Shown: one piece after another, positions 6,801 to 13,123 of the stretch
Numbering within the stretch: position 1 is the first letter of the stretch
Layout: every line of letters starts with the position of its first letter
Made by a program: the position numbers and the translations under genes
Source: a virus
IMG/VR virus record: IMGVR_UViG_3300030060_006046
Span: 546-22,626 of that record
Length of the DNA: 22,081 nucleotides
Strand: one strand, 5' to 3'
The notes under the pieces: model-generated
Database searches by the model: none
Seen by the model: the letters and a program-made list of their open reading frames with translations, nothing else
Told to the model about the DNA's origin: nothing

Positions 6801-8882
6801 TCAACAATCAACTTTGGTGATAACTTATCTGTATCTCCTATCTCATCTGGTATTGTAACTGTTACTGCAACGCAATTATCTAATGAAGAAGTTCAGGATA
6901 TTGTTGGTGCGATGTTCTCAGGAAATACTGAGACTAATATTACTGCCACTTATCAAGACGCTGATGGAACAATTGATTTAGTAGTCGATAGTGGTGTATC
7001 AGTTGCAAACCAAGCAGATAACAGACTAATTACTGCAACAGGTACAACAGATACATTAAATGCAGAATCAGGATTAACATTTAATGGTTCAACTCTTGCA
7101 TTAACAGGAAGCCAAACGATTACTGAATTATTAGATGTAGATGGTCATACAGAATTAGACAATGTGAATATATCAGGTGTTGTGACTGCCACTACATTCA
7201 AGGGTGCAATTCAGGCAACATCAGGAACATTCTCAAGTGGTGTTGATGTTACTGGTGATTTAGATGTTGATGGACATACCGATTTAGATAACGTATCTGT
7301 TGCTGGTGTGGTAACTGCAACAACATTTGTGGGTGCTCTCACTGGTAATGCTGCGACTGCAACTGCATTACAAAATGCAAGGAATATTGGTGGTGTTTCA
7401 TTTGATGGTACTGCAAATATCAATCTACCTGGTGTAAATGCAGCTGGTAATCAGGATACAACTGGGACTGCTGCTGTTGCAACTAATGTTACTGTAAGTG
7501 CTAATAATTCTGGAAACGAAACTGTTTATCCAGTGTTTGTTGATGGTGCTACTGGAACACAAGGTGCAGAAACAGACACAGGATTGAATTATAATCCAAG
7601 CACTGGTAATTTAAGTGCTACAAAATTTACTGGAGATGGTTCAGGACTCACAGGCATCACTGCATCAGGTTCTGGCGTTGTTATCAAACACGATGGTTCA
7701 ACAGTTGGAACTGCTGGAACAATTAACTTCTCCACTAACTTAGATGTTTCTGCAATCTCTGCTGGTATTGTAACTATAACTGCATCTGGTGGTACATCAT
7801 TAACATCTGACGCACAATTTAATACTGTAGCAGGAACTAATGCTGGAGATAGTTTCTCAGGCACAGATGCAGTTAGAAATACTTTGTTTGGATATGATTC
7901 TGGAACTGCAATCACCACTGGAGATAATCATGTAGCTTTGGGTGCTTATGCATTAGATGCTATTACGACAGCTAGTGATGCAGTTGCAATAGGTTATAAC
8001 GCTGGTTCATCTTTAACAGTTGGACAATGTGTTTTAATAGGATCTAAATGTGCTCCTTCAGCAACTACATCTAGTGGTATTGTTGGTGTTGGTTATGAAG
8101 TTTATCAATATTTAACAGATGGTCAATACAATACTGCTGTTGGCTCTCAGTCAATGAATCGTATCACATCAGGTGACAAAAACTCATCGTATGGTGCACT
8201 CTCACTTATCTATTCCCAAACAGCGGACGAGAACACTGCCTTGGGTTTCAGAGCTTTAGGTAGGGAACCCGTTACTGGAAATAGTAATACAGCTGTTGGT
8301 TGTGAGGCAGGTGCAACAGGGACTAATGATATAACTTCAGGTGCTAATAATATACTTCTTGGATACAAAGCACAGGCTACTTCAGCAACAGTATCAAACG
8401 AAGTTACTATTGGTAATTCAAACATCACCAAGTTTAGAATACCTGGTATTAATTTCATACTGAAGGATAATGGTGGAACTCCAACTCAAGGTCACGTTTT
8501 AACTGTCGATGCAAATGGTGAAGCAGGTTTCGCTGCAGTATCAGGTGGAACAGATGTAGGTATTACTACTAACCTTTCAGGATCATTCACTGCAAGTGCA
8601 GGTTCTCCATCTACAATCAATACATATGGATATGGTTCTGGTGATATCGTTGTTGAGTATACAGTATTCATTAAGAATGGAAGTAATTTCCAATCACAAA
8701 AACTACTAGCAATGAGAGATGGAACAACGATTCATTCAACACAGTTTGCAGTGATGTTTAGTTCTTCACTCTTAGTTCAATTAGATGCTACAATCAGTAG
8801 TGGTAATATCTTATTAAGAGCAACACCTGAAACGGGAGTGTCAGGGTCAACAACTTATAAAGTCAAACGTGAGGTAATGTAA
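3876..8882 (+). CDS. Giant mosaic tail fibre / adhesin (1668 aa)
   Basis: This is the largest gene in the window and almost certainly a fibre or adhesin. Residues 1-200 form a head region ending in VGYRYVGQTGAPTPGISTF. Residues 235-810 are a shaft of duplicated modules: two 55-residue GENKIP...YHGMFAHVHS blocks (235, 410), repeated DLDVDGHTNLDNVSIAGV units, one SIGGTLTYEDVTN unit (373), and a YDLGVSATRWKNVYADT block. Residues 835-898 are a phage module (FTASSGQTTFSFSYTV...VDVFVNGIKL), followed by a poly-Gly linker and VEDTTPQLGGNLDL. Two GDGSGLTG...GIVT blocks follow (948, 1253). Residues about 1320-1528 resemble YadA-type head repeats (NTAVGSQSM, NTALGFRAL, NTAVG). The last ~110 residues form a separate terminal domain. 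AGGGG at 3865-3869 supports the start. The stop overlaps the protease start by one base. Confidence 0.9.
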   Translation: MALTTEQKVDLLLKKLGYTKTKTGSVFGTGSVSGTGKQPFGEAIPSPLIVANGSLWNESDSIPATPPGSDTNQVKRYPTTSALRMTLDTTVTPNRSFIAYTTYNNTSSARLTNWIDTQFGPDYQLEVYVDDATDPDNKLPEGGSGSNDGWYFDYSAGVLNFSDTNLPSGVNGAGTNVYIVGYRYVGQTGAPTPGISTFSYLDLTVERNLDVGVQGGISTFRHNIDANGIIEGIAGENKIPFLYSNLAALPNAGTYHGMFAHVHSEGRGYFAHAGNWLELVNKDTSGNVGLSGDLDVDGHTNLDNVSIAGVTTTGGLLDINAGGQANTFKVEDLTDNRIVIAGTGGELEDSANLTFDGSTLGVTGDATFSGNVSIGGTLTYEDVTNVDSVGLLTARSGIRVTGGVIEAQAGENKIPSLYANMAALPSPSTYHGMFAHVHSTGRGYFAHGGAWYELVNADLTGRVGTGTESYFIDRLVSTSTTATSLNVTGVTTAVTVDINGDLDVDGHTNLDNVNIVGVVTVTGEIKIPDLSGSNNRITFGDSQDLQIFHSSGANYIKVINAQNLVFGTNNTNRALFESSGNFRPVVDGVYDLGVSATRWKNVYADTYIGNGNLGIVTATEIDLNGDLDVDGHTNLDNVSIAGVTTTAGLLDINAGGQANTFKVEDLTSGRVVLAGTGGELEDSNNLRFDGTDLYVSGIRVGSGNGGIIGDDIITRNLKVNGISTFIGIATFNNATFHGDIDVDGHTNLDNISVAGVTTFTGNIDANGNLDVDGITDLDVLNVAEAATFSSSAEFDGNAKFDSTITAGGATGSNGQYLKSTGSGVAWASFPTARTSQAFTASSGQTTFSFSYTVGLVDVFVNGIKLSTSEFTATNGSSVVLAVGCFVGDIVEILSYNTATGGGGGGSLNNIVEDTTPQLGGNLDLFNKTINGTGGINITGVVTATTFIGDGSGLTGVTASGTGVVIKDGGSTVGTASTINFGDNLSVSPISSGIVTVTATQLSNEEVQDIVGAMFSGNTETNITATYQDADGTIDLVVDSGVSVANQADNRLITATGTTDTLNAESGLTFNGSTLALTGSQTITELLDVDGHTELDNVNISGVVTATTFKGAIQATSGTFSSGVDVTGDLDVDGHTDLDNVSVAGVVTATTFVGALTGNAATATALQNARNIGGVSFDGTANINLPGVNAAGNQDTTGTAAVATNVTVSANNSGNETVYPVFVDGATGTQGAETDTGLNYNPSTGNLSATKFTGDGSGLTGITASGSGVVIKHDGSTVGTAGTINFSTNLDVSAISAGIVTITASGGTSLTSDAQFNTVAGTNAGDSFSGTDAVRNTLFGYDSGTAITTGDNHVALGAYALDAITTASDAVAIGYNAGSSLTVGQCVLIGSKCAPSATTSSGIVGVGYEVYQYLTDGQYNTAVGSQSMNRITSGDKNSSYGALSLIYSQTADENTALGFRALGREPVTGNSNTAVGCEAGATGTNDITSGANNILLGYKAQATSATVSNEVTIGNSNITKFRIPGINFILKDNGGTPTQGHVLTVDANGEAGFAAVSGGTDVGITTNLSGSFTASAGSPSTINTYGYGSGDIVVEYTVFIKNGSNFQSQKLLAMRDGTTIHSTQFAVMFSSSLLVQLDATISSGNILLRATPETGVSGSTTYKVKREVM
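4578..4742 (+). repeat. 55-residue GENKIP/YHGMFAH module, copy 1
   Basis: This block encodes 55 residues beginning GENKIPFLYSNLAALP and containing YHGMFAHVHS and GRGYFAH. It is repeated in frame at 5103-5267 with about 15 substitutions and no length change. The two copies are 525 bases apart within the same fibre gene. Confidence 0.9.
4752..4949 (+). repeat. 198-base compound duplication, copy 1
   Basis: This region encodes DLDVDGHTNLDNVSIAGV followed by GLLDINAGGQANTFKVEDLT and AGTGGELEDS. The same order and spacing recur at 5751-5948, so the unit copied was the whole 198-base block rather than each motif separately. Confidence 0.9.
4992..5069 (+). repeat. SIGGTLTYEDVTN module, copy in giant fibre
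   Basis: This is a 26-residue module, SIGGTLTYEDVTNVDSVG then LLTARSGI. Related copies lie at 10992-11069, 13308-13385 and 20871-20948, all of the same length, in four different fibre genes. Confidence 0.9.
5103..5267 (+). repeat. 55-residue GENKIP/YHGMFAH module, copy 2
   Basis: This is the second in-frame copy of the module at 4578-4742 (GENKIPSLYANMAALP, then YHGMFAHVHS and GRGYFAH). Differences cluster at the linker-facing ends; the YHGMFAHVHS core is unchanged. Confidence 0.9.
5751..5948 (+). repeat. 198-base compound duplication, copy 2
   Basis: This is the second copy of the block at 4752-4949, 999 bases away and in frame. The DVDGHTNLDNVSIAGVTT and DINAGGQANTFKVEDLT segments are identical in protein. 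Differences cluster around DNRIVIAG versus SGRVVLAG and in the last few residues. Confidence 0.9.
6717..6869 (+). repeat. GDGSGLTG/VVIK module, copy 1
   Basis: This encodes 51 residues beginning GDGSGLTGVTASGTGVVIK and ending SSGIVTVTA. The same-length second copy is at 7632-7784. Confidence 0.85.
7632..7784 (+). repeat. GDGSGLTG/VVIK module, copy 2
   Basis: This is the second in-frame copy of the 51-residue module at 6717-6869 (GDGSGLTGITASGSGVVIK, ending SAGIVTITA). It immediately precedes the YadA-like head-repeat region. Confidence 0.85.
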
Positions 8883-10816
8883 TGGATTTTGATAGGTACA
8901 CCCTAGCAGTCACAAGTCCTGAAGATTGGAATACAATTCATAACGCACTCATCGTTGATAGTAACGAGGATGGTATTCCTGATCGAAAGGTAACTTGCAC
9001 TGATTGTAAATCTCATAGTCCAACTCGTGGAACTTATGATTTAACAGAGGAAGAGGCAAATCAAATTGCAAAACATCCAAAGGTAAAGTGGATTGAGTTA
9101 TCACCCTCTGACCATCCAGATGTATATCCAAAACCAGATCCTGCTACAAAAAGATTCAAGAAAGATGTAAAGATATATCGTGATATTAGTACTGGTGGTG
9201 CAAATGTCCCACCAGGTATCACAACAGCAGGTGAATTAGATCGAACAAATTGGGCAGTAAAGAGAGTTGGTATTGCAACTAATGGTGATAGTTGGCCAAA
9301 TGTTACAGGCAATCCACCACCAATATTCGCAGATGTAAGTTATAGTTTGACAGGTAAAAATGTTGATGTTGTCATTCAAGATTCAGGTATATTACAGTAT
9401 CATCCAGAGTTTATTCAGGGTAATGGTGAATCAAGAGTAAGAGATATAGTATTGGATGGTCCGTATTATATTGATCCAGCATATTTTAATTCTAACGGAC
9501 ACACATATACAAAACCTGATGGTCGCACTGGTATAACAACTGCATCAGCTCATGCTTGGTGGGAAAACTCAAGTAATCGTTCAGGATCTTTTTCATCAGT
9601 TGCAACAGTATCCATTGATAGTGGTTATACCGTTTCAAGAAGTGTTGGTGCTGGTGGTTCAGCACATAGTTTTACTAGCGGTCACGGAACAGGTTGTGCT
9701 GGTTTAGCTGCTGGAAAGAATTTTGGATTAGCATTTGAGGCAAATCTATGGAATATAAACATCTTTGGTGATATAATGGCAGTTGAAACAAGTTATGATG
9801 TCTTAAAAATATTTCATCAAAATAAACCAAATGTTCAGGTTGGTAGTAAGTTGAGAAAAAATCCAACAGTTGTAAATGGAAGTTGGGGATATCAGGCTAG
9901 ATTTAATACAAGTACAAATGTGAGTTATAAGTTTAGAGGTGAGACAGGAACATTTACTGGAAACGATGCGATTGGGTCAGGTACAGGACAATTGGCAAGA
10001 GCGATGAAAGAAGGATTAAGTAATCAAGTAGTAGGTGCTTATAAATCTTGGTCTTCTTCATCAGGGTCTAATTCAAGTGATACTGCTGGTGGAGAGATGA
10101 TTGATTCAGGAGTTATATTTGTTGCTGCTGCTGGAAACAACAATCAAAGATTGGGCATTGGTGCTGCTGATCCTGATAGATTAAATTATATGACATCAAC
10201 TGTTGGTAGTGATCCAAGATCAGAGTTTCCAGGAACAACAAAACCTTGCGGTCATCGTGACTGGATGAATCCTCAAGGAATCGGTTTTGATAGTGCAAAT
10301 GATTTTCATCCAGTAATTTGTTGTGGTGCAATGGAAGAATATATTGGTATTGTTGGTGGTGCTGCAACTTATGAAGAGGGTCAAGCAAGTTACTCTAATA
10401 ATGGACCAGGTATTGATATCTGGGCACCTGCTGATGAAACTTTATCTGCTGGAATATGGGATACTGATGAAACAAATTATGTAAGAAGAGATGATGCTAA
10501 TTTTGCAGATCGTTTTTTCAATGGAACATCAGCAGCTGCACCTGTGGTAACTGGATTGGTCGCTCTATTTTTAGAATCGAATCCATCTGCAACATCTAAA
10601 GATGTTAAAAATTTCTTGGCAAATGATGGTTCTAAATTACTACCTGATTCAGAATGGGTAGATCAATATACAAGTGATTCTTCAACAGATTACTGGTCTG
10701 AAAGTTATAACAATCGTGGTGCACAAAATAAAGTAGCATTCGATCCATTTGCATCTGACACAGTTCCAACCATTTCAGGAGTTGAAATGTCAGGTGTATC
10801 GTACACACAATCATAA
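8882..10816 (+). CDS. Subtilisin-like serine protease (peptidase S8 family), 644 aa
   Basis: The catalytic triad of the S8 family is complete: Asp167 in VDVVIQDSGI, His268 in SGHGTGCAG and Ser550 in NGTSAAAP, with the oxyanion-hole Asn419 in VAAAGNN. Residues 1-80 contain LTEEEANQIAKHPKVKWIEL, which resembles the end of an inhibitor_I9-type propeptide, so the enzyme may mature by self-cleavage. The Asp-His gap (101 residues) and the His-Ser gap are larger than in subtilisin, so surface insertions are likely. No signal peptide or membrane segment is seen, which fits a protein that acts inside the cell or in the virion. The ATG shares its A with the stop of the giant fibre (TAATG), so translation is probably coupled; GAGG lies just upstream. 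The target is unknown; fibre maturation or digestion of host surface protein are both possible. Confidence 0.92.
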   Translation: MDFDRYTLAVTSPEDWNTIHNALIVDSNEDGIPDRKVTCTDCKSHSPTRGTYDLTEEEANQIAKHPKVKWIELSPSDHPDVYPKPDPATKRFKKDVKIYRDISTGGANVPPGITTAGELDRTNWAVKRVGIATNGDSWPNVTGNPPPIFADVSYSLTGKNVDVVIQDSGILQYHPEFIQGNGESRVRDIVLDGPYYIDPAYFNSNGHTYTKPDGRTGITTASAHAWWENSSNRSGSFSSVATVSIDSGYTVSRSVGAGGSAHSFTSGHGTGCAGLAAGKNFGLAFEANLWNINIFGDIMAVETSYDVLKIFHQNKPNVQVGSKLRKNPTVVNGSWGYQARFNTSTNVSYKFRGETGTFTGNDAIGSGTGQLARAMKEGLSNQVVGAYKSWSSSSGSNSSDTAGGEMIDSGVIFVAAAGNNNQRLGIGAADPDRLNYMTSTVGSDPRSEFPGTTKPCGHRDWMNPQGIGFDSANDFHPVICCGAMEEYIGIVGGAATYEEGQASYSNNGPGIDIWAPADETLSAGIWDTDETNYVRRDDANFADRFFNGTSAAAPVVTGLVALFLESNPSATSKDVKNFLANDGSKLLPDSEWVDQYTSDSSTDYWSESYNNRGAQNKVAFDPFASDTVPTISGVEMSGVSYTQS

Positions 10817-10832: not shown

Positions 10833-12707
10833 ATGGCAGAAAAGGGTTTCGGTGTAAAGGAGATTAATCTGATTGGTGCGTCAGGAACACCAACGATTGA
10901 AAGTCCGAACAATTTAAATCTAAATGCAGTCAATGTTGCAATCAGTACGAACGCAACGATTGGTGGAACTCTCACTGTATCTGGAAGTCTTTCAATAGGT
11001 GGAACAGTAACATATGAAGATGTAACAAACGTAGATGCGGTTGGTATAATTACAGCAAGAGATGGAGTATTCATACCTGATAGTAAAAAATTGAATTTAG
11101 GAAATACTGCTAGTAGTCCAGATTTACAGATTTACCACGATTCAAGTAATAATTATTCATACATTAAGGAAACAGGTTCTGGACCTTTACAAATACAAAG
11201 TAATGCAGTTTTCTTTCATGATGCTGGTAATACCCAGACTAATGCACAAATTACTGATACTGTTTGTAGATTAAATTATAGTGGTTCGACTAAAATTGCA
11301 ACAAGTAATACAGGAGCAACTGTAACTGGAACTTTAGTTGCAACAACTTTCAGTGGTTCAGGTGCATCACTCACAAGTTTACCAGCAGGAAACTTAACTG
11401 GAACTCTTCCTGCGATTAGTGGTACAAACCTAACAAACTTACCAGCAGCAAATTTAACTGGAACTCTTCCTGCAATTAGTGGTGCAAACTTAACAGGTAT
11501 CGCAGTCACCGAAGCACCAGTCACAGATTATACTATCACTGGAAATAATCCAAACTACTATTTTCATGGTGGTGGTGTAGATGAAACTGCAGGTAATCCT
11601 ACTTTATATTTGATAAGAGGACAGAAATATCGTTTTAATAATACCACTGGATCTGGACATCCATTTGCTATTCGTGTATCAAATGGTGGATCAGCATACA
11701 CTGATGGTGTGTCTGGAAACAATCAGGGTGTTCAATTCTTCACTGTGCCTTATGCTGCACCAGCATCATTAGTTTATCAATGTACGATTCACGGTGGAAT
11801 GGTTGGTAGTATTGTGATTCGAGGTGGTGCTAATTTTGCATCCATATCTAATAATGCAGACAATCGAGTTATCACTGGTGGTAGTGGTGCTAACTTAAAT
11901 GGTGAATCTACTTTAACTTATGATGGTACAACTTTAAACAATGGTGCTGGTGGTATAAATCTCCAATCTACTGGTGGAGATTTAATAAATGTAACAACCA
12001 CAGATGCTACTAGTAGATCAACTATCAAGTTCAATACAAATGGAAATGATTGGGAGATTGGAGCAAGAGGTTCATCAGGTAATCCAGATAATGCTTTTTA
12101 TATTTTTGATAATGCAGCAATAGATTATAGAATGGTAATCAATCCCACTGGATTCATTACTAACACATTTAAACCAGTAAGAACTGCACAAAATGCAGTT
12201 GTAACTGATGCATCTAATAACAGATTTGTAATTACATTACCTAGTACAAGTAGAATGTTCAGACTTACAGGTTCATTTAATTTTGATGGTTCAGGGACTG
12301 GTACAATTTGGGCTGATTTTGGTGATTGGAGTGATAGTCATAGTCCTAGTTTAGAAGGATTTGCAAACGTATGGAGAAATGGAGCTGGAGGTCCTGAATA
12401 TCAGGATAACCCATCAGGACGATACTATCGAGTTGCTACCCCATTTGATTATGGATCTCTTGAAGTTACTTATGATGTTCTCATAACAACATTGGCATTT
12501 AATGGTGGTGCAAGACCAGGAGTACATGGACATATTAGATGGACTTGGAGTGGTATTGGAAATGCTTTGACAGTATTTTCATTTCAAGATACTGCTGCGA
12601 ACGGGACTGAAAGATTAAATAGTTTTGCTTGGGATATTGATGGTGTTTCTGGTAGTACTGGAACAGGAAGACATCATTATATTATAGAGGAGTACCCACT
12701 TACATAA
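10833..12707 (+). CDS. Tail fibre with an embedded cupredoxin-like domain (624 aa)
   Basis: This is a modular fibre protein. Residues 1-50 are a gene-specific start. Residues 54-79 are the shared SIGGTVTYEDVTN module, continuing as GVFIPDSKKLNLGN and PDLQIYHDSSN, a form shared with the 295-residue fibre at 20715. Residues 185-223 are a tandem 20-residue repeat (NLTGTLPAISG twice). Residues about 230-331 look like a cupredoxin: a strand rich in aromatic residues, LYLIRGQKYRF, GHPFAI and YQCTIHGGMVG. Residues about 440-624 form a C-terminal domain, possibly a sandwich fold, rich in Trp and Tyr. There is no signal peptide. The gene is first in a two-gene late unit and has no ribosome-binding site; AAAAAGTAAT precedes the ATG. 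A small chaperone-like gene follows after 5 bases. Receptor binding is inferred from context. Confidence 0.85.
   Translation: MAEKGFGVKEINLIGASGTPTIESPNNLNLNAVNVAISTNATIGGTLTVSGSLSIGGTVTYEDVTNVDAVGIITARDGVFIPDSKKLNLGNTASSPDLQIYHDSSNNYSYIKETGSGPLQIQSNAVFFHDAGNTQTNAQITDTVCRLNYSGSTKIATSNTGATVTGTLVATTFSGSGASLTSLPAGNLTGTLPAISGTNLTNLPAANLTGTLPAISGANLTGIAVTEAPVTDYTITGNNPNYYFHGGGVDETAGNPTLYLIRGQKYRFNNTTGSGHPFAIRVSNGGSAYTDGVSGNNQGVQFFTVPYAAPASLVYQCTIHGGMVGSIVIRGGANFASISNNADNRVITGGSGANLNGESTLTYDGTTLNNGAGGINLQSTGGDLINVTTTDATSRSTIKFNTNGNDWEIGARGSSGNPDNAFYIFDNAAIDYRMVINPTGFITNTFKPVRTAQNAVVTDASNNRFVITLPSTSRMFRLTGSFNFDGSGTGTIWADFGDWSDSHSPSLEGFANVWRNGAGGPEYQDNPSGRYYRVATPFDYGSLEVTYDVLITTLAFNGGARPGVHGHIRWTWSGIGNALTVFSFQDTAANGTERLNSFAWDIDGVSGSTGTGRHHYIIEEYPLT
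10992..11069 (+). repeat. SIGGTVTYEDVTN module, copy in the 624-aa fibre
   Basis: This is a 26-residue copy (SIGGTVTYEDVTNVDAVG then IITARDGV) of the module at 4992, 13308 and 20871. Here and at 20871 the homology continues into FIPDxKKLxLGN and an IYH motif. Confidence 0.9.
11385..11501 (+). repeat. Tandem 20-residue NLTGTLPAISG repeat
   Basis: Two adjacent units with a 20-residue period (AGNLTGTLPAISGTNLTNLP, then AANLTGTLPAISGANLTGI) are nearly identical in DNA as well. The unit resembles short repeats in phage collar-type fibres and sits directly before the cupredoxin-like domain. Confidence 0.9.
11520..11825 (+). other. Cupredoxin-like domain within the fibre
   Basis: Residues 230-331 of the 624-residue fibre contain the pattern of a type-1 copper protein: a His in GHPFAI (276), then Cys317, His320 and Met323 in YQCTIHGGMVG. 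The Cys-x2-His-x2-Met spacing is the one known in amicyanin; plastocyanin has Cys-x2-His-x4-Met. GHPF and the strand before the Cys fit the fold. Copper binding is inference, since phage domains may keep the fold only for structure. Confidence 0.65.
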
Positions 12708-12712
12708 AAATT

Positions 12713-13123
12713 ATGGCAATTAATTACGAATCAAAAGAGGATATGGGATATCTACTCATTGCACTTAGAGAGTGTTGTGGATTGGATAGTGATACCATAT
12801 TTAAAGTTAAAGATATACACTCTGCAGGATCATATGATGGAATTGAAATAATGAAGAGTGATACAAATGGTGTTACAAAACCATCTAAATCTGATTTAGA
12901 GGCAAAATTTGATGTTGTAAAGAATAGAGAAAATTTCGCTCGTCTGAGAAGAAAGAGAGACGAACTATTAAGTGAATGTGATTGGACACAGAGTGGTGAT
13001 GTGCCAACAAAAATAAAAACCAAATGGCAGACATATCGACAAACACTCAGGGATTTACCAAACAAACAATCACCGTCTGATATGTTTTTAAGTAACATAA
13101 CCTGGCCAAATATACCATCATAA
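12713..13123 (+). CDS. Tail-fibre assembly chaperone-like protein (136 aa)
   Basis: The C-terminal half carries the signature of the phage tail assembly chaperone family (Pfam Phage_tail_APC): LRRKRDELLSECDWTQSGDV, a KTKWQTYRQTLRDLP helix and a final WP motif. These small proteins are usually encoded just after a fibre gene and are thought to help it fold or assemble. The N-terminal half (MAINYESKEDMGYLLIALRE...) is not one I recognise. It contains a short CC pair (RECCGLDS). The gene begins 5 bases after the stop of the 624-residue fibre. GAGGAG is present at 12687-12692, about 20 bases upstream and too far to be a normal site, so translation is probably coupled to the fibre. The stop codon lies within the next late promoter. 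Partnership with the fibre is inferred from position. Confidence 0.75.
   Translation: MAINYESKEDMGYLLIALRECCGLDSDTIFKVKDIHSAGSYDGIEIMKSDTNGVTKPSKSDLEAKFDVVKNRENFARLRRKRDELLSECDWTQSGDVPTKIKTKWQTYRQTLRDLPNKQSPSDMFLSNITWPNIPS

Follow-up and report, generated by a model that had tools for sequence, protein, structure and literature searches.

What is a seemingly complete set of copper ligands doing inside a tail fibre? The question is raised by a stretch of viral DNA of 22,081 nucleotides (here called the window), contained in a 22,626-base virus record, IMGVR_UViG_3300030060_006046. The end of psbA and a complete psbD occupy the first 1.47 kb of the window and are approximately 87% identical to Prochlorococcus phage P-HM1. 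After psbD come fibre-like genes, an S8 subtilase, an ORF of 624 residues, a tail-assembly chaperone and more fibre-like ORFs, in that order. The window is part of the genome of an uncultivated cyanophage, most likely a myovirus that infects Prochlorococcus or Synechococcus. A small ORF with HNH-endonuclease-like motifs (1590–1961) lies after psbD and before the fibre genes, and P-SSM2 has a 'putative endonuclease' at the equivalent position.

The residues of interest lie in the 624-residue ORF (10833–12707, on the + strand, as are the subtilase and chaperone genes beside it), whose reading frame is open. A Pfam scan of the whole ORF gave no match, and for this reason the label 'tail fibre', used in the initial annotation, has to be drawn from the neighbouring genes and from N-terminal similarity. 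The N-terminal 226 residues are common to the fibres of loci L002, L003 and L038, and there are tail matches to phrog_677 and phrog_30742. The gene directly downstream (12713–13123) encodes a tail assembly chaperone (PF16778, Phage_tail_APC, E 8.8e-17), which supports the reading of the ORF as part of a fibre cassette. The last 173 residues, at the C-terminal tip, have no relative in the viral_contigs scan. The C-terminal part also contains one HGH (HxH) motif at residues 565–567 (12525–12533), a motif type that has been proposed to bind iron in other phage fibres (PMC11705849).

Directly upstream is the S8 subtilase gene (8882–10816, PF00082, E 7.6e-23), in which the catalytic D/H/S motifs are present (DSGI, HGTG, GTSAAAP). 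This arrangement is not peculiar to the window. In 23 of the 46 loci that have both (approximately 19 after removal of duplicates), the end of the subtilase ORF immediately precedes the ORF that carries the domain described below, usually with a gap of within 13 bases, as in the window; the loci concerned include L002, L003, L005, L062, L073–L077, L152, L159 and L168. In S-CAM4 (L158, 6246–8291) and S-BM3 (L156) the two are fused in a single protein.

The domain itself consists of around 100 residues in the middle of the protein (residues 229–332, 11517–11828), and follows on closely after a series of shaft-like repeats, NLTGTLPAISGxNLT, which can be read in the translation at 11367–11498. The initial annotation had placed a cupredoxin-like domain at residues 230–331 (11520–11825), with a full set of four copper ligands, and both the span and the ligand positions proved correct. 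His276 (11658–11660) is in the motif GHPFAI, which starts at residue 275, while Cys317 (11781–11783), His320 (11790–11792) and Met323 (11799–11801) are all in the motif YQCTIHGGMVG, starting at residue 315. The only other cysteine in the 624-residue fibre is C145.

The structure of the domain was predicted using AlphaFold2, with 28 aligned relatives. The model is confident (pLDDT 92.3, pTM 0.85) and contains nine strands. His276 (residue 52 of the model) comes just before the strand at 54–57, Cys317 (residue 93) is at the end of the strand at 88–93, and His320 and Met323 (residues 96 and 99) fill the loop preceding the last strand, 100–106. The predicted model thus has the order of a type-1 site, namely His, Cys, His and an axial Met or Gln, with the Cys ending a strand, and the placement of the predicted ligands along the strands is in outline the usual type-1 copper arrangement.

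When the model was compared with the PDB using Foldseek, there were 55 matches at E ≤ 0.001, with a best E of 9.7e-6. The best 50 of the 55 are all copper proteins, and include nitrite reductases, rusticyanin, amicyanin, plastocyanin, AcoP, laccases and N2O reductase. Among the Foldseek PDB matches listed, the TM-scores to solved cupredoxins are modest, mostly 0.45–0.58; the top cyanophage matches in a search of BFVD have TM-scores of 0.86–0.92. The prediction and the comparison therefore agree with the initial annotation in assigning the domain to the cupredoxin superfamily fold, the Greek-key β-sandwich of plastocyanin and azurin. Independently, a sequence profile of the family ranks the same kinds of protein highest in the PDB, with E-values that are modest throughout (0.002–0.04): 0.0024 for nitrite reductase, 0.0075 for amicyanin and 0.013 for plastocyanin. 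In the alignment of the profile with amicyanin, H276, C317, H320 and M323 are in register with H53, C92, H95 and M98 respectively, which bears out the proposal of a complete ligand set with amicyanin-type Cys-x2-His-x2-Met spacing. With the size of the family described below, the predicted fold and this alignment show that the motif is no accident.

It does not follow that the domain belongs to a known copper family. In a Pfam scan, both the window ORF and the isolated domain fall below the gathering cut-off of PF00127 (Copper-bind) and PF13473 (Cupredoxin_1). PF00127 is matched weakly by nine of the 28 relatives (best E 6.6e-4), and the second copy of the domain in the P-SSM2 fibre passes it when searched as a protein (23.3 bits, the cut-off being 21.2), while remaining under it in the genome scan (19.8 bits). 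The domain does match the C-terminal third of phrog_677, 'baseplate wedge tail fiber protein connector', with an E-value of 1.6e-37, and the match of the window ORF is limited to columns 229–409 of that family. Since it lies outside the Pfam copper families, we have filed it as a new, unnamed family within the cupredoxin fold and in a new setting, rather than as a plastocyanin or an amicyanin.

The comparison with known proteins is instructive here. Amicyanin (PDB 1aac, 3ply) has the same cupredoxin fold and the same Cys-x2-His-x2-Met loop, but it is a free periplasmic electron carrier, whereas the domain in the window is a module of a structural ORF of 624 residues, flanked by tail genes, with no electron partner. 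The two also differ at the first ligand, which in amicyanin is followed by Asn (PHNVHF) and in the window and all 28 aligned relatives is part of the sequence His-Pro-Phe. An Asn after the first His is typical of the small blue copper carriers, and the Pro found in its place therefore implies a different second shell. The domains of copper nitrite reductase, rusticyanin, AcoP and laccase, although among the best structural matches, are only approximately 15–23% identical; they are enzymes or electron carriers, unlike a fibre module, and several of them have longer ligand loops. The cyanophage plastocyanin (petE) is also a cupredoxin and is carried by the same phages. It is however a separate gene of 116–144 residues in syn9, P-SSM2 and S-SSM7, where it matches PF00127 with E-values of 1e-19 to 1e-22. 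The idea that the fibre has captured a phage plastocyanin is not favoured, because these genomes have petE as a gene of its own, and it scores far better against Pfam.

The initial annotation regarded the domain as an oddity of one adhesin, and linked it to the photosystem genes of the virus. Neither suggestion survives a wider search. Using tblastn, 325 phage records were found to carry the domain family at E ≤ 1e-3, nearly all of them cyanophages, and most of the matches listed are annotated as baseplate wedge or tail-fibre connectors. In many cultured cyanomyoviruses the domain forms the C-terminal end of a gp9/gp10-like baseplate protein, and it recurs in tail fibres, in S8-protease fusions, in a podovirus and in phages of non-photosynthetic hosts. 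The connector of syn9 (ABA47071.1), which belongs to phrog_677, is a good example: it starts with the N-terminal domain of T4 gp9/gp10 (PF07880, E 1.3e-10; PDB gp10, E 1.6e-7) and ends with the cupredoxin domain, so that the C-terminal third of this family is equivalent to the domain in the window. PF07880 was not found in the window ORF by the Pfam scan. A profile search of whole phage records detected the domain in 21 of 21, a figure that does not measure prevalence because 18 of these were picked for having a match (P-HM1, P-TIM68 and P-SSM4 were picked for psbD similarity only); the largest number of copies, up to four, is in P-SSM2 and P-HM1. Further carriers are the podovirus P-GSP1, the pelagiphage HTVC028P, the Methylophilales phage Melnitz-1 and S-TIM5. 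The domain is thus a module that is frequent in the baseplate and fibre proteins of cyanophages, and its presence in a pelagiphage, a Methylophilales phage and secreted proteins of Bacteroidetes, together with the separate plastocyanin gene, speaks against a tie to the photosystem genes.

The domain also occurs in cells. In Bacteroidetes the domain is found at the end of secreted collagen-like proteins, in Psychroflexus at the end of fasciclin proteins, and in a Porticoccaceae genome alongside an imelysin (M75) domain. These relatives (L085–L089) may be surface copper-binding proteins, and they are a possible source of the phage module. A gp9-like protein with a very close counterpart in cyanophage P-TIM40 (188.6 kb) is encoded on a contig assigned to the bacterium Nonlabens xiamenensis (NZ_RMVE01000006.1, 188 kb), and this contig is probably a phage genome within a bacterial assembly. 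In syn9, the gene after the gp9/gp10-like gene (L151, 13357–13764) holds a second and very divergent copy with all the ligands kept. It has counterparts in L160, L161, L162, L169 and L182, with the pattern HPM, HPI or HPL followed by C-x2-H-x2-M.

A clue as to whether the four residues form a functional site comes from the way in which they are conserved and lost. Close relatives conserve them perfectly, but this is a biased result, because some of these sequences were found using patterns that contain the motif, and it was set aside. The recount used only copies that had come from profile searches of whole genomes, had been selected on E-value, or happened to lie in flanking sequence. Removal of redundancy left 49 copies, and in 45 of these the sequence is complete through the ligand region. 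The full ligand set is kept in 40 of these 45, with Met as the axial residue in 38 and Gln in two, counting related phages and judging the exceptions by eye. The residues singled out in the initial annotation are thus conserved in homologues that were not chosen by pattern. The Gln variant (C-x2-H-x2-Q) is seen as a subfamily in L058, L060, L069 and L070, at residues 140–267 of ORFs of 854–860 residues, and in L126; stellacyanins have Gln in this axial position. Relatives differ by synonymous changes in the His and Cys ligand codons (CAT or CAC and TGT or TGC, respectively), so the conservation acts at the level of the protein.

The remaining five copies have all lost both the Cys and the second His. 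In the order first His, Cys, second His and axial residue, four of them read HSSR, HTSR, HDQT and FAVM, and the fifth, from syn9, has no recognisable ligand. No intermediate, in which Cys or the second His had been lost singly, was found among the 45 complete copies. Because the profile was built from copies bearing the motif, full loss would be harder to detect than partial loss, and the lack of intermediates is therefore not an artefact of detection. On a tree calculated from the alignment with its ligand columns masked, there are two losses of Cys and the second His, joint on each occasion, a number too small to be significant. The clearest example is a domain whose orthologues, approximately 60% identical between contigs, have YYWCHTHTNQGG in some and YYFSNSSANRGG in others. 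This all-or-none pattern suggests that the residues form a functional metal site under selection, now and then lost whole, rather than a remnant of the fold. Since ligand-free copies persist, some copies can evidently do without the site.

It could be argued that the domain is simply a stable β-sandwich knob, metal-free in the virion, in which the four residues persist through common ancestry or because they are needed for packing. Fibres need stable knobs, there is little free copper in the cytoplasm, and the siblings that lack the Cys not only persist but are still modelled by AlphaFold2 as a β-sandwich (pLDDT 80), with fold matches that are mixed and weak and include some cupredoxins. Packing residues would however be expected to drift singly, whereas the loss of Cys and the second His is coordinated, and packing hardly explains why a free Cys, two His and a Met remain in register across the divergent HPF and HPM types. 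The joint loss, as read from sequence comparison, is easier to reconcile with a real metal site than with an inert knob, which we therefore regard as unlikely.

If the site does bind metal, it need not be structural. The ligand set and the short loop match those of the electron carrier amicyanin, and many of the hosts evolve oxygen, so the site could be redox-active, either passing electrons or acting as a sensor of oxygen or redox state on the surface of a photosynthesising cell; in this way it might help to trigger attachment. We consider this improbable. Neither a partner nor a second redox centre or docking surface has been identified; the domain also occurs in phages of non-photosynthetic hosts; its cellular relatives are found in adhesin-like proteins; and the variant with axial Gln and the copies without ligands give no sign of a uniform redox demand. 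About equally doubtful is the suggestion that copper or another soft metal serves host recognition or metal acquisition, as a copper version of the iron 'Trojan horse' of marine phages. It has a precedent in the iron-binding HxH motifs of marine phage fibres, which have been proposed as bait for host receptors (PMC11705849), and the domain is located in adsorption organelles. Against it, no link to a copper-uptake receptor was found, and in gp9/gp10-like baseplate proteins the domain is located elsewhere than at a fibre tip. The most far-reaching version, and the most speculative, would make cyanomyovirus particles copper proteins with many type-1-like sites in each set of baseplate and fibres, loaded in seawater or at lysis; the deployment of fibres, or attachment, on oxygen-evolving hosts would then be gated by the redox state of the sites or by their metal.

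We hypothesise instead that virion appendages are built in part from this cupredoxin-fold module, whose type-1-like copper site is intact, and on balance we think this probable. The ligand set makes copper the likeliest metal. The locations that the copies have in common, namely the baseplate–fibre joint, the fibre shaft and adhesin-like cellular proteins, are the reason for proposing a metal-tied structural or adhesive module, and no electron-transfer partner for the domain is in evidence. Copper in the bacterial cytoplasm is tightly limited, and its scarcity means that the loading of the site needs an explanation. Copper might be bound once the particle leaves the cytoplasm, or be taken from host copper at lysis. 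The metal would then link the first His to the Cys-His-Met loop, stiffening the end of the sandwich in the fibre or at the baseplate–fibre joint, with a role that, judging by location, would be structural or adhesive and not in electron transport. This is comparable in principle to the iron ions at the tip of T4 gp37, which, like the HxH fibres of marine phages (PMC11705849), has metal-coordinating residues built into the fibre. There, iron is held by the HxH motifs of a trimer, whereas the site in the window is predicted to be formed by Cys, His, His and Met of one chain, within a cupredoxin fold. The predicted domain is thus most likely a virion module that binds copper and has a structural or adhesive function.

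A search of the open-access literature (most subscription papers and all preprints being outside its scope) found no description of cupredoxin domains in cyanophage virions or of copper in phage tails; in the cyanophage papers that it retrieved, 'copper' refers to microscope grids. The closest idea that it found is the binding of iron by HxH motifs in phage fibres (PMC11705849). The fold and the site are well supported in silico, in a setting that is unusual yet widespread. Even if the sites are unloaded, an annotation is gained for the C-terminal domain of the widely conserved phrog_677, now named only as a gp9-like connector. The particles of related marine viruses may, on the evidence of these sequences, carry copper, apparently unreported so far. 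If the sites are indeed loaded, then abundant tailed phages of the ocean picocyanobacteria carry copper in their baseplates and fibres, in parallel to the idea put forward for iron in other marine phages, and this would bear on marine copper speciation, on the stability of the particles and on their adsorption.
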